Assembly: GCA_005879945.1 (NCBI GenBank)
Contig: VBHX01000023.1
Span: forward strand, 1 to 48,206
From: Chloroflexota bacterium
Lineage (GTDB): Bacteria > Chloroflexota > Dormibacteria > Dormibacterales > Dormibacteraceae
Length of the DNA: 48,206 nt
Direction: 5' to 3'
The translations under genes and the position numbers were made by a program. The notes beneath the pieces were generated by a model. That model searched no databases and was not told the DNA's origin. It saw only the letters and a list, made by a program, of their open reading frames with translations. Each line of letters opens with the position of its first letter. Position 1 is the first letter of the stretch. Below are positions 6,103-16,054 of the stretch, piece after piece.

Positions 6103-6446
6103 GACCGTGTGATCGTAAGCTGCGACCGGTGCAGCCGTTGGGGACGTGCCCAAGTGCGGGGGTAGTTTCGCGAATCGCAACCGGTTCCATTTCTGCAGCA
6201 ACCGGCGCCTCGATGTGCACTTCGGCGGTCGAGATCCACAGGTGGTGGATACATTCCAGCGCCTGCTCAGCGCATCCGAGAAATCAGGACCGGTGACGGT
6301 CGTGCCGGAGAAGGCCGGATTGAATTCCAGCTGCGGATGGGCTACGTCTTTCGAATTCATCCGCCCGACGAGGGCGACGGCGAGGTGGAGAGCTGGCTCG
6401 ACGACGCCTATTCAGCCGGCGAGCAGCGGCATCTCAAGCGACGCGC
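6103..6446. other. 344-bp gap without a convincing gene
   Basis: No reading frame here has the length or composition of a confident gene. On the minus strand two overlapping frames both give protein-like composition (for example VAHPQLEFNPAFSGTTVTG, then in another frame EVHIEAPVAAEMEPVAIRE), as if one gene had been broken by a frameshift. On the plus strand a 44-codon frame from ATG 6337 to TGA 6471 (starting MGYVFRIHPPDEGDGEVE) also looks coding and would overlap the 3' end of the next gene by 25 bp. The GC content is lower than in the flanks. A decayed gene or a small unrecognised one are both possible. Confidence 0.4.
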
Positions 6447-7154
6447 TCAGGGTTCCGGCTCAGATAACTGAGAGAGCTGGTACTCGATCCGCTGCCGCGT
6501 CGCGCCCAGGTCCTTGAGCACATGCGCCGCGATGCCCTCGCCCTCGGTCGCCAGCGCCAGCAACATGTGACCGGTGCTGACACGAGGATCGCCCATCGAG
6601 CCGCAAAGCTGGAAAGCCTGCTCGATCACCTTCTTCACCCGCGAGGTGGGGATGATCTTAGTCGGCACTGCGCGCTTCTTGCGGCCGAGCGCCTTCTCCA
6701 AGGCGGATCGAACCGCGGCCTCGTCGACGCTGAGCGCGGCGAGGATCTTCGCTGACTGGAAATCGGCGTCTCCATATGCGGCGAGCAGCATGTGCTCGGT
6801 GCCGATGTAGGAGAAGCCGGCTTTCAGTGCCTCGGTCTGAGCCAGCGTCAGCAGCTTCTGCGCGCTGGGCGTGAACTGCTCGAATGGATAGATAGTCGAC
6901 GGACGCTTCCCCACCGCCTGCTCCACGGCTCGCCGGATCGTTGCCCACCGTGGCGGGACCGTGATGCGCATGCCCTCGGTCGTGGGGAGCTGGACACCTA
7001 TCCGCGGCTCCATCGGCGTCTGGGTGTGGCGCTCCATCCATTCCAGGCAGGCGGCGATGACGATCGAGTTGACGGGCATCCCGGTCCGCGCCGAAGCCTG
7101 GTCGAGCCGAGCGAACATCTCATCGGTGAACCGGACGGTCGTCGCCTTCGGCAT
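6447..7154 (-). CDS. Ribbon-helix-helix protein fused to two Clp N-domain repeats, no ATPase
   Basis: The 235-residue protein joins two domains rarely seen together. Residues 4-43 (TTVRFTDEMFARLDQASART, then VNSIVIAACLEWMERH) match the Arc/CopG ribbon-helix-helix DNA-binding fold. Residues 94-157 and 167-230 are two Clp_N repeats as found at the front of ClpC/ClpA: FTPSAQKLLTLAQTEA with YIGTEHMLLA, and the second repeat with STGHMLLALATEGEGIAAHV. There is no Walker motif, so it is not a protease ATPase. Clp N-domains bind adaptors and substrates, so the protein may be a DNA-bound regulator whose stability or activity is linked to ClpC; this is inference. A TGACGTCA palindrome lies at 7164-7171, just upstream of the ATG at 7154, and could be an autoregulatory site. 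Confidence 0.85.
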   Translation of the reverse strand: MPKATTVRFTDEMFARLDQASARTGMPVNSIVIAACLEWMERHTQTPMEPRIGVQLPTTEGMRITVPPRWATIRRAVEQAVGKRPSTIYPFEQFTPSAQKLLTLAQTEALKAGFSYIGTEHMLLAAYGDADFQSAKILAALSVDEAAVRSALEKALGRKKRAVPTKIIPTSRVKKVIEQAFQLCGSMGDPRVSTGHMLLALATEGEGIAAHVLKDLGATRQRIEYQLSQLSEPEP

Positions 7155-7168
7155 CGGTCAATCTGACG

Positions 7169-8176
7169 TCATTTTGCAACCATTGTCAAGGCCTCGAGCG
7201 GACGGAAGTTGAGGATCCGATCCATCGGGATGCCGGCCCGCCTCGGCATCCACGCGGCCATCGGCACGTATGCGAACTCGGTCGGGGCATGGGCGTCGGC
7301 GTCGAGGGAGAAGGTGCAGCCGAGTTCGAGCGCAAGCCGAGCCTGCTCAGGCGACAGGTCCATGCGCGCGGGATCGCAGTCGATCTCCAGCGCCACGCCG
7401 TGGGCGGCCGCCTCGCGGAAGACGCGCTCGAAGTCGTAGGTCGCACCCTCTCGCGAGCCTGGCCTGCGCCCGGTCGGATGGCCGATTACATCGACATTGG
7501 GATTCGAGACCGCCCGCAGCATGCGCTCGGTCATCGCGGTCGGTTCCTGCCGCAGCTTGACGTGCGGGGAGGCGATGACGATGTCGAGCAGCTCGAGCAC
7601 GGCGTCGGAAAGATCCAGCGCGCCGTCCTCGAGGATGTCGACCTCAATGCCCTGGAGCAGGGCCAGCCCCCCGACCTCCTGCTCGACCTTCTCGCGCTGC
7701 TGCGACTGGGCCAGCAGGCGTTCGGCATCGAGCCCGTTGACCACCTTGATGCGCGGCGAGTGGTCGGTGACCCCCAGGTACTTATAGCCCAGCGCCTTCG
7801 CGGCGCGAGCCATGTCGATCATCGTCGCGCGGCCGTCGCTCCAATCCGTGTGCGCGTGAAGGTCGCCCTGGTACGCGGTGAGGTCGATCGTCGACTCGTC
7901 ATCGCGCGCCGGCTGCCCGGTCTCCGCCCGCAGCCTTTCGAGGTATGAGCTGCGGCCGGTCTCGACCAGCCCGGCGAGGACTTTCGCGATACCCGCCCCG
8001 ACGCCCTCGATCGAGGTCAGCTTGTTCGCTTTGTGCAGCGCCTCGAGGTCCGGCCGCTCGAGCGCGATCGCCCACGCCGCCGCCGAAAACGCCTTGGCGC
8101 GAAAGACCTCCTTGGGATCCTGCCTCAGGAGATAGCCGATCTCAGACAGGACCTGAGCCGCAGCGATCGCATCCAC
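7169..8176 (-). CDS. PHP-domain phosphoesterase with PolX-like N-terminal HhH domain
   Basis: A 335-residue protein. Residues 1-85 look like the 8-kDa/helix-hairpin-helix region of family X DNA polymerases (YLLRQDPKEVFRAKAFSAAA; SIEGVGAGIAKVLAGLVETG). A PHP metallo-phosphoesterase domain follows: GDLHAHTDWSDG (residues 104-115), GVTDHS, GIEVDILEDG, IASPH, GHPTGRRPG, EIDCDP and SLDADAHAP, together supplying the His/Asp/Glu metal ligands. The polymerase palm that separates these parts in bacterial PolX is absent. The likely role is a nucleotide or DNA 3'-end phosphoesterase in repair, but histidinol-phosphatase-like activity is possible. The GTG at 8176 is preferred to an upstream ATG at 8203 that would run into folE; a CACAAT box is 6 bp upstream of it. 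Confidence 0.87.
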   Translation of the reverse strand: MDAIAAAQVLSEIGYLLRQDPKEVFRAKAFSAAAWAIALERPDLEALHKANKLTSIEGVGAGIAKVLAGLVETGRSSYLERLRAETGQPARDDESTIDLTAYQGDLHAHTDWSDGRATMIDMARAAKALGYKYLGVTDHSPRIKVVNGLDAERLLAQSQQREKVEQEVGGLALLQGIEVDILEDGALDLSDAVLELLDIVIASPHVKLRQEPTAMTERMLRAVSNPNVDVIGHPTGRRPGSREGATYDFERVFREAAAHGVALEIDCDPARMDLSPEQARLALELGCTFSLDADAHAPTEFAYVPMAAWMPRRAGIPMDRILNFRPLEALTMVAK

Positions 8177-8201
8177 GTAGCAATTGTGTGACCATCTCGG
8201 C

Positions 8202-8780
8202 ATGGCCAAGCCGAAGCTCACCCATCGCGACCAGATCCCGGACCTGGTCGAGTCACTGCTCGCCGAGCTGGGCGAGGATCCGACGCGTCCGGGACTGAAG
8301 GCGACCCCTACCAGGGTGTCGCGCGCGCTGCGCGAGCTGACGGACGGATATGGCGTCAGCGCCGCTGATATCGTCGCCGGCGCCGTCTTCGACCAGGACT
8401 ACGACGAGATGGTCCTCGTCAAGGACATCCCGTTCTACAGCCTGTGCGAGCACCACATGCTGCCGTTCTTCGGCAGCTGCCACGTCGGGTACCTGCCGAA
8501 AGGTCGCGTCGTCGGGCTGAGCAAGATCCCGCGCCTGGTCGTCGCCTTCGCGCACCGGCTGCAGCTGCAGGAGCGCATGACCAAGGACATCGCCGAGGCC
8601 CTCAACGAGGCGGTCGCGCCCAAGGGCGTCGGCGTGGTCGTCGAGGCGCGCCACCTGTGCATGGAGATGCGGGGGGTGCAGAAGCCTGGAGGCCAGATGA
8701 TCACGTCGTGCATGCTGGGCACCTTCCGCAAGGACGCGCGCACGCGCGCCGAGTTCCTGGAGCTGGTCCGCCGCCCGTAG
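8202..8780 (+). CDS. folE: GTP cyclohydrolase I
   Basis: Homodecameric zinc enzyme that converts GTP to 7,8-dihydroneopterin triphosphate, the first step of folate synthesis. The 192-residue length is normal. Family signatures are EDPTRPGLKATPTRVSRAL at residues 25-43, SLCEHHMLPFFG with zinc ligands Cys82 and His85 and catalytic His84, GLSKIPRLVVAFAHRLQLQERM, and HLCMEMRGVQKPG with zinc ligand Cys153. All ligands are intact, so this is the zinc-dependent FolE rather than FolE2. The ATG at 8202 fits the family; an upstream TTG at 8184 adds six residues. It is divergent from the PHP gene with a 25-bp gap. Its stop is 69 bp before the inositol-lipid operon, which has its own control region. Confidence 0.97.
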   Translation: MAKPKLTHRDQIPDLVESLLAELGEDPTRPGLKATPTRVSRALRELTDGYGVSAADIVAGAVFDQDYDEMVLVKDIPFYSLCEHHMLPFFGSCHVGYLPKGRVVGLSKIPRLVVAFAHRLQLQERMTKDIAEALNEAVAPKGVGVVVEARHLCMEMRGVQKPGGQMITSCMLGTFRKDARTRAEFLELVRRP

Positions 8781-14069: not shown

Positions 14070-15020
14070 GTGGTGGGGGATCCGTTCGCCGGCATCGCCG
14101 GGCACACGCGAGCACTGGACCAGCTTCGGTCGCAATTCGAATCAGGCCGACTGGCGCATGCATACCTACTCGTCGGGGAGGCCGGGCTCGGCAAGGCGAC
14201 CACCGCGCGCACGCTCGCCGCGGCCCTGCTCCCCGAGGCGCCGCTGCACAGGCACCCCGACTATTGGGAGGACGACCGGATCAAGGCGCTGTCGATCAAC
14301 GAGATCAGGCTGCTTCCCGACAAGCCGCCGGAATTTCACGAGCTGTCGCTGCAGGCGTTTCTCAACCTCAAGCCCGCCGTGGGTACACGACGTGTCGCGT
14401 TGGTGACCAATGTTGGCCGCCTTCGTGACCAGGACCAGGGTGTGCTGCTCAAGACGCTCGAAGAGCCGCATCCCCACCGGGTGATCGTGCTCACGACGCC
14501 GAGCCTGAATCCGTTCGTCGTGCTGCCGACGGTCGTCTCGCGATGCCAGCGTCTGTTCTTTCACCCGGTGCCCGCGCCGGAGATCGAGAAGCTTCTTCTG
14601 GACCTCGACGTGGAGCCGGGACGCGCGCGTCTGCTCGCCGACCTTTCTCGCGGCCGGCCGGGCTGGGCTCTGCGCGTCGCGGGCGATGCCGGCGTGATCG
14701 AGCAGCACGAGGAATGGACGCGACGCCTGGAGGAGGTGTTCGGCGCGCCCGCCGATGTGCCGCTTCGAGTCGCCGCCGAGCTCGACGGCAGCCAGATGGC
14801 GTGGCGCCGAGGCGAAGGCGAGGCCGAGGATCCCGCGCTGTTCGCGATTGCGAGCTGGCAGATCGAGCTGCGGCGCCGGATGCTGTCGAGCAGCGGCAAG
14901 ATCCAAGGCCGATGGGCGCGCCTGCTCGAGCTCTCCTACGACACGCTCGGATACCTGGAGCAGAACGTCAATCCGCGCCTCGCCTTTGAAACCTTCCTGT
15001 TGGAATGTCGCACTTCCTGA
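14070..15020 (+). CDS. holB: DNA polymerase III delta' subunit-like AAA+ protein
   Basis: Clamp-loader subunit of about 316 residues. It has FAGIAGHTRALDQLRSQFES and AHAYLLVGEAGLGKATTART, with a Walker-A-like loop at residues 36-43, LQAFLNLKPAVGTRRVALVT, LLKTLEEPHPHRVIVLTT (equivalent of the Walker B/LEEP region) and VVSRCQRLFFHPV with the SRC motif of clamp-loader subunits. The Cys4 zinc module usual in delta' and gamma is not present. The last 100 residues are divergent, as usual in HolB. Start GTG 14070, nine bases after the lipid synthase stop, so it may be the tail of that operon. It overlaps hisC by 16 bp. Confidence 0.9.
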   Translation: MVGDPFAGIAGHTRALDQLRSQFESGRLAHAYLLVGEAGLGKATTARTLAAALLPEAPLHRHPDYWEDDRIKALSINEIRLLPDKPPEFHELSLQAFLNLKPAVGTRRVALVTNVGRLRDQDQGVLLKTLEEPHPHRVIVLTTPSLNPFVVLPTVVSRCQRLFFHPVPAPEIEKLLLDLDVEPGRARLLADLSRGRPGWALRVAGDAGVIEQHEEWTRRLEEVFGAPADVPLRVAAELDGSQMAWRRGEGEAEDPALFAIASWQIELRRRMLSSSGKIQGRWARLLELSYDTLGYLEQNVNPRLAFETFLLECRTS

Positions 15021-16054
15021 AGAATGCCCTCGAGGGCTACCGGCCGTATGTCCCCGGCGAGCAGCCGCCCGACGGCGAGGATTGGGTCAAGCTCAACACC
15101 AACGAGTCGCCGCTGCCCCCTTCGCCGAAGGTCATCGAGGCGATCAAGGCCGCCACAGACGAGTCATTGAGGCTATATCCGAGTCCCACCGCGGCGCCGG
15201 CGCGCAAGGCGATCGGCGAGCACTTCGGGCTCGACGCCGACCAGGTTGCGCTCGGGAACGGCGCCGACGAGCTGATCGAGATGTGCTTTCGAGCGTTCGC
15301 CGGCGCTGGAGATCGCGTGGCCTACTCGACGCCGACGTACCCACTCCTCGATCCCCTGTGCCGCGTTCACGAGGTCGTCGCATCGACCCATCCCACCGCC
15401 GAAGAGTGGACGTGGTCGCCCGAGTTCGTTGATGACCCGGCACCGCTCAAGTTCCTCATCAACCCGAACTCCCCGACCGGGACCCACCACGGCAGGATGA
15501 CCGTCGAGCGAGTGCTCGGAAGATCGCGCGGGGTGGTCGTGCTGGACGAGGCGTATGTCGACTTCGCACCCGAATCGCAGCTCGGGTTGATCGGCAAGCA
15601 CCCCAACCTGCTGATCCTGCGCACGATGTCGAAGTCGTACGCGCTGGCCGGCATGCGCATCGGCTTCGCCTTCGGCCATCCGGAATTGATCGCCGCGCTC
15701 GACGCGGTCAAAGATTCGTACAACCTCAACCGGCTGGCCATCGTCGCCGCCATGGCCGCGATCAACGACGACGAGCACCACCGCAAGATCGTCCAGCACG
15801 TGGTCAGCGAGCGCGCCTGGCTCGAGGACCAGCTGAGCGAGGATGGCTTCGAACACTCGCCGTCCGCGGCCAACTTCGCGTTCGTCAAGCCGCCGCGCGG
15901 CGCGTCCGCGGCAGCGGTCGCCGACGCCCTTCGCGAGCGCCGGGTGCTCATCCGGCATTACGATCGGGAGCCGATCGCGGGTTGGTTCCGCATCACCATC
16001 GGCACCCGCCGGCAGCACGAACGCCTGCTGGAGGCCTTGAAGGAGATTCTGTGA
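15005..16054 (+). CDS. hisC: Histidinol-phosphate aminotransferase
   Basis: PLP-dependent class I/II aminotransferase of 349 residues converting imidazole-acetol phosphate and glutamate to histidinol phosphate. Motifs: VKLNTNESPLPPSPKV, RLYPSPTAAPARKAIGEHFG, LGNGADELIEM (phosphate-binding of PLP), INPNSPTGT with the Asn, LDEAYVDFA with the Asp and Tyr, RTMSKSYALAGMRIGF with PLP lysine K210, and WFRITIGTRRQHERLLEAL with the substrate-binding Arg. Related aminotransferases can act on phenylalanine or aromatic keto acids, but the N-terminal block fits HisC. It overlaps the upstream gene by 16 bp and the next by four, so it is translated from a polycistronic message. No other his genes are in view. 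Confidence 0.92.
   Translation: MSHFLKNALEGYRPYVPGEQPPDGEDWVKLNTNESPLPPSPKVIEAIKAATDESLRLYPSPTAAPARKAIGEHFGLDADQVALGNGADELIEMCFRAFAGAGDRVAYSTPTYPLLDPLCRVHEVVASTHPTAEEWTWSPEFVDDPAPLKFLINPNSPTGTHHGRMTVERVLGRSRGVVVLDEAYVDFAPESQLGLIGKHPNLLILRTMSKSYALAGMRIGFAFGHPELIAALDAVKDSYNLNRLAIVAAMAAINDDEHHRKIVQHVVSERAWLEDQLSEDGFEHSPSAANFAFVKPPRGASAAAVADALRERRVLIRHYDREPIAGWFRITIGTRRQHERLLEALKEIL

Follow-up and report, generated by a model that had tools for sequence, protein, structure and literature searches.

A ribbon-helix-helix domain fused to a ClpC-type N-domain pair in Dormibacteria: a candidate autorepressor analogous to ClpC2

In mycobacteria, ClpC2, a partial homologue of ClpC1, represses its own promoter (Taylor et al. 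2023, PMC10030653; PDB 8ADA, 8AD9, 8B9O). Cyclomarin releases ClpC2, clpC2 mRNA rises 263-fold and ClpC2 then titrates cyclomarin from ClpC1; the operators overlap the promoter, the transcripts are thought to be leaderless and the authors assign DNA contact to the Clp_N domain rather than to the N-terminal domain (PMC10030653). ClpC2 is the one worked example, in the literature that we searched, of a ClpC N-domain acting both as autorepressor and as toxin sponge. Ribbon-helix-helix (RHH) repressors form intertwined dimers with an antiparallel beta ribbon. They bind palindromic or tandem sites, often in their own promoter, and their dimers sit in tandem on palindromic boxes about one helical turn apart. 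No paper was found in our literature search that pairs the phrases Clp N-terminal domain and ribbon-helix-helix.

Here we describe a gene in which these two kinds of domain are joined. It lies in a stretch of 48,206 nucleotides (the window), which is a contig of a Dormibacteria genome of the phylum Chloroflexota; what its nearest loci are called suggests a lineage from soil.

Architecture of the protein

The gene is on the minus strand (7154..6447, ATG at 7154, stop codon ending at 6447) and, as supported by Pfam and by its orthologues, it encodes a stand-alone protein of 235 residues without an AAA+ domain. Pfam detects Clp_N (PF02861) above cut-off in two stretches (E = 4.7e-22) and no AAA+ ATPase domain after the pair. 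Based on Pfam and on the structure model, repeat 1 covers residues 94-157 (6684..6875, minus strand) and repeat 2 residues 167-230 (6465..6656, minus strand); a genome scan puts the stretches at 6684-6842 and 6483-6617 on the same strand. The model is that of a monomer and was computed from a deeper alignment, an earlier four-row alignment having given too poor a model. Most of residues 90-155 and 170-230 are modelled with high confidence. The closest fit of the Clp_N part is to the N-domains of ClpC (E = 6.6e-11; TM, by target, reaches 0.91). Among the structures matched are the ClpC1 complexes with cyclomarin, ecumicin, rufomycin and lassomycin, as well as ClpC2 from M. smegmatis. Two Clp_N repeats without an ATPase, as the first-pass annotation had read from the letters of the window, are thus borne out by both profile and fold. 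In all ten fusions that we found, the protein ends in P-E-x (PEP, PEA, PET or PED), a conserved tail.

The Clp_N pair resembles the N-domain of ClpC from B. subtilis (5HBN/2Y1Q) and of ClpC1 from M. tuberculosis (3WDC) in fold, in sequence (about 40% identity), in its E32-type glutamate and in its groove residues; it is about 51% identical to the ClpC of its own host. ClpC binds phosphoarginine through the glutamates E32 and E106 (PMC12583610). The first corresponds to E120 and is kept in nine of the ten members. Unlike ClpC, the protein has no AAA+ rings, and the E106-type glutamate is replaced by G, N or D in every member (G195 here). In the alignments, the groove residues F2, K85 and E89 of ClpC1 (roles after PMC10030653, PMC12583610 and general knowledge) have F91, K174 and E178 as their counterparts. 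The position equivalent to F80 of ClpC1 is occupied by P169, so that cyclomarin itself may not bind; the host ClpC likewise has a proline in that stretch (IIPTSRVKK). In G036, the most distant member, the Clp_N part has much degenerated; this speaks against strict conservation of the ligand.

The N-terminal domain (residues 1-44; 7023..7154, minus strand) is separated from the Clp_N pair by a variable, fast-evolving linker of low pLDDT (residues 45-88; 6891..7022, minus strand). It has the strand-helix-helix sequence pattern of the RHH repressors CopG, Arc and MetJ, with a GxPxNSIV turn, a presumed strand at about residues 4-9 and helices at 11-24 and 28-43; it differs from them in being fused to Clp_N and in that no RHH family passes its cut-off. 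RHH_3 matches the full protein with E = 0.012, below the Pfam cut-off, and N-terminal pieces match PF12651 (0.0012), RHH_4 and RHH_1, all below the curated cut-offs. The 'Arc-like repressor' PHROG scores 0.035 against the N-terminus, and hhalign aligns the latter with CopG without gaps (P = 4.4e-5). RHH_3, RHH_4, RHH_1, NikA-like proteins, BrnA/RelB-type antitoxins and the Arc-like PHROG align in register, each of them weakly. PapA_C, an unrelated family, scores as high as the RHH families, so the family matches alone are insufficient to call the domain. A search of solved structures with the RHH profile gave nothing significant, and in the monomer model both helices are present while the N-terminal strand is not formed (pLDDT 41-68).

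The domain is accepted as real because of its conservation among relatives. The same fusion occurs in nine other species; its RHH part is better conserved than Clp_N, and TTxRF and GxPxNSIV are near-invariant. Between the window protein and two congeners, dN in the RHH part is 0.010 for a dS of 0.6-0.7; the dN/dS ratio is thus about 0.015, against about 0.14-0.18 for Clp_N. An RHH motif had been proposed at residues 4-43 and, weak when taken alone, it is well supported by these nine further species. The first 44 residues are present in the orthologues and are their most conserved part; this conservation and the low dN/dS rule out a start-codon error. The fusion of an RHH domain to a Clp_N pair without an ATPase is therefore real, and sequence comparison indicates that the RHH domain is its most constrained part.

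The upstream two-box element and promoter

Just upstream of the gene, all ten members have the pattern TGAnnKCA-N3-TGAnnTCA. In the window this candidate tandem operator (7164..7182, minus strand) consists of box 1, TGGTTGCA (7175-7182), a spacer of three nucleotides and box 2, TGACGTCA (7164-7171), and the centres of the two boxes are 11 bp apart. The boxes score 10-12 of 12 in the ten members and lie 21-30 nt ahead of the start codon; the P values per sequence are 0.0005-0.019, which is optimistic given that the pattern had been derived from these very sequences and that the relatives are not independent. The self-similarity of 11-mers, summed over nine relatives including the window, reaches 71 at a lag of 11 and at most 53 at the other lags from 4 to 20. 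Two divergent members show the repeat most strongly, G282 with 9/11 and G191 with 10/11; in each, both copies have changed together. The boxes of G036 were read only once the 11-bp period was known.

A sigma-70 promoter, TTGACA-N17-TCAGAT, is predicted here, and its -10 coincides in part with box 2. The predicted -35 (7184..7189, minus strand) contains TTGAC, which is invariant in nine aligned upstream regions. The predicted -10 (7161..7166, minus strand; TCAAAT or TCTAAT in relatives) is 17 bp from it and ends 6 nt before the ATG. We found no Shine-Dalgarno-like sequence within 20 nt of the start in any of the ten members, and we infer that the mRNA is leaderless.

The conserved upstream neighbour encodes a PHP-domain protein (7169..8221, minus strand) and is considered here for context only. 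In this genus its last codons run into box 1, the TGA of box 2 closing the gene. In genus g6 it stops earlier and the boxes persist; they also persist in G191 and G036, in which no PHP neighbour was found in the stretch examined. The boxes are therefore not a by-product of coding sequence.

A palindrome, TGACGTCA, had been proposed as a self-operator. As a stand-alone site we rejected it, since this 8-mer is expected 0.88 times per window by chance (one copy is seen) and is not strictly conserved; it stands as box 2, half of a conserved tandem element over the promoter. Self-regulation is supported by this sequence pattern. In the host genome (3.04 Mb, 86.8% complete, 236 contigs), a 20-mer search found the element in a single copy within 3 mismatches, so no regulon is visible, and the region upstream of the host clpC scores only 8/12 for the boxes, which leaves clpC unsupported as a target.

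Distribution and history of the locus

When 110 Dormibacteria genomes were searched with the RHH profile, ten matches were obtained, each fused to Clp_N, in ten species of four genera. No fusion was found elsewhere among 400 sampled Chloroflexota genomes. Outside the phylum the search covered near relatives, plasmids and phages. Viral contigs and phages yielded no full-length relative. Three plasmid matches (H1, H2 and H15) were rejected as RHH carriers, the alignments having run into out-of-gene sequence or a ClpC. In a Clp_N tree, a single clade (99/99) unites eight of the ten RHH members, while G191 and G036 are on long branches.

The order PHP, RHH-Clp_N, luciferase-like oxidoreductase and acyl-CoA dehydrogenase is syntenic in genera g1 and g6. 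In five genomes (G095, G207, G261, G439 and G027) PHP adjoins the oxidoreductase and the fusion is absent. A congener, G342, keeps a deletion scar in which the first few and roughly the last 14 codons of the fusion gene are left (L152, G342:C143:29800-32612). From these clean absences and the scar, we conclude that the gene is dispensable and was gained or lost more than once, a pattern consistent with a gene that serves conditionally in defence or stress.

Two other features of the locus were observed. In the window, about 300 bp between the fusion and the oxidoreductase (6130-6446) are absent in relatives and hold the remnant of a plus-strand reading frame, seemingly frameshifted; the start of the oxidoreductase is likely near 6129, not 6360. 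In G087 (L158), several copies of a palindrome around TAGTCGCGACTA lie within 254 bp between PHP and the oxidoreductase.

Possible function and related proteins

Like ClpC2, the window protein is short, with an extra N-terminal domain, a C-terminal ClpC N-domain and no ATPase; also like ClpC2, it has an operator-like element over its promoter and a leaderless start, both predicted here from the nucleotides. The N-terminal part of ClpC2 is, in contrast, a four-helix-bundle dimerisation domain, whereas that of the window protein is RHH-like, with two helices after a short extended stretch. The operators also differ: the ClpC2 site, CGTCAAC-n5-GTTGACG, has no match near 7155-7195 when up to 3 mismatches are allowed, and tandem TGAnnTCA boxes, in another phylum, stand in its place. 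As neither the N-domain nor the operator of ClpC2 was found, we do not file the protein as a ClpC2. The analogy is functional, not part by part, and by this analogy the protein most likely works like ClpC2 despite its different parts.

On balance, and with some reserve, we favour the view that the protein represses its own gene through the RHH domain and uses its Clp_N domain to sense or buffer ClpC ligands. This view draws on the fusion in ten species, the constrained RHH domain, the two-box element over the promoter, the ClpC-like Clp_N pair and the ClpC2-like arrangement; the scores below cut-off in single sequences and the unformed strand in the monomer model count against it. The RHH domain would dimerise and two dimers would sit on the tandem boxes, the 11 bp from centre to centre being about one turn of DNA. 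They would cover the -10 of their own leaderless promoter and so keep expression low. The Clp_N pair would mimic the docking face of the host ClpC, and a ClpC-directed ligand (candidates are a peptide antibiotic, an adaptor, or an arginine-phosphorylated or misfolded protein) would, by binding to it, weaken DNA binding, so that the protein would be made in quantity, soak up the ligand and spare ClpC. The first-pass annotation had suggested a regulator that binds DNA and is linked to the Clp machinery, and this suggestion is well supported. Of the two roles that it offered, decoy or factor delivered for degradation, the closest precedent, ClpC2, which it had missed, favours the former, combined with a sensor; nothing was found for the latter.

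The protein could also be a decoy, a sponge or an adaptor in which the RHH domain only dimerises and does not regulate through DNA. Short Clp_N proteins in which no DNA-binding part is recognised are indeed common in the same class and in Actinomycetota, but near-invariant RHH motifs, and a tandem element conserved alongside them, make this unlikely in our opinion. We regard as rather improbable a transcription factor for which Clp_N is a handle, brought to ClpC adaptors or competing at them, such that its stability, and through it its targets, follow ClpCP activity. A DNA-binding part is fused to Clp_N and the E32-type phosphoarginine site is largely kept, yet Clp_N is the docking domain of an unfoldase and not a known degron, the E106-type site is lost throughout, and no second operator was found in the genome within 3 mismatches. 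The patchy occurrence (10/110 genomes), the clean absences and the scar in a congener would suit a relic or neutral fusion without function, its upstream element being a promoter only; the low dN/dS in both domains and a two-box repeat over and above -35 and -10 make this very improbable. That the RHH domain is an antitoxin of the VapB/BrnA type, with Clp_N in place of the toxin-binding tail, is scarcely credible, since the conserved neighbours (PHP, oxidoreductase, dehydrogenase) are not toxins and the fusion gene can be lost alone, even though BrnA-type antitoxins match weakly and an RHH reading frame that the profile detects in a distant Chloroflexota genome directly precedes that of a PIN-type toxin (VapBC-like, PIN recognised by eye).

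If the autorepressor reading holds, the logic of ClpC2 recurs in a second design, in another phylum and with another DNA-binding domain, and the fusion would serve as a testable reporter of unknown natural products or phage proteins that bind ClpC in soil bacteria. It is possible, though we are more doubtful than confident here, that the docking domain of ClpC was independently made the sensor of one-component regulators through unrelated DNA-binding domains, namely a four-helix domain (ClpC2), an N-terminal RHH (this protein) and a C-terminal RHH-like domain (Rhodococcus plasmids), forming a general 'ClpC-attack' class of sensors or sponges. If true, such a class points to widespread natural ClpC-targeting molecules in soil.

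Several other Clp_N proteins were seen. The host genome also has a full ClpC (contig 54), a ClpB-like reading frame and a second short Clp_N reading frame cut by a contig end. On Rhodococcus plasmids (L131:1489-2097 and L136:1198-1812), a short Clp_N pair is followed by a probable C-terminal RHH (NikA-like, weak, E = 0.0018-0.0036); these proteins thus share both parts with the window protein but have the reverse domain order and belong to a separate lineage. A short Clp_N protein encoded on a Streptomyces plasmid (L134:955-1656) has, in its N-terminal part, a stretch that resembles a helix-turn-helix, GASWTEIGDAIGVSKQAAQQRH (HTH_AsnC-type, weak, 0.0079), and is possibly a ClpC2-type N-domain. 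Finally, contig 174 of the host genome, G000 (14373-15659; L139:1074-2360), carries a fusion of Clp_N (2e-7) to Peptidase_M50 (6.3e-9), a membrane metalloprotease family.
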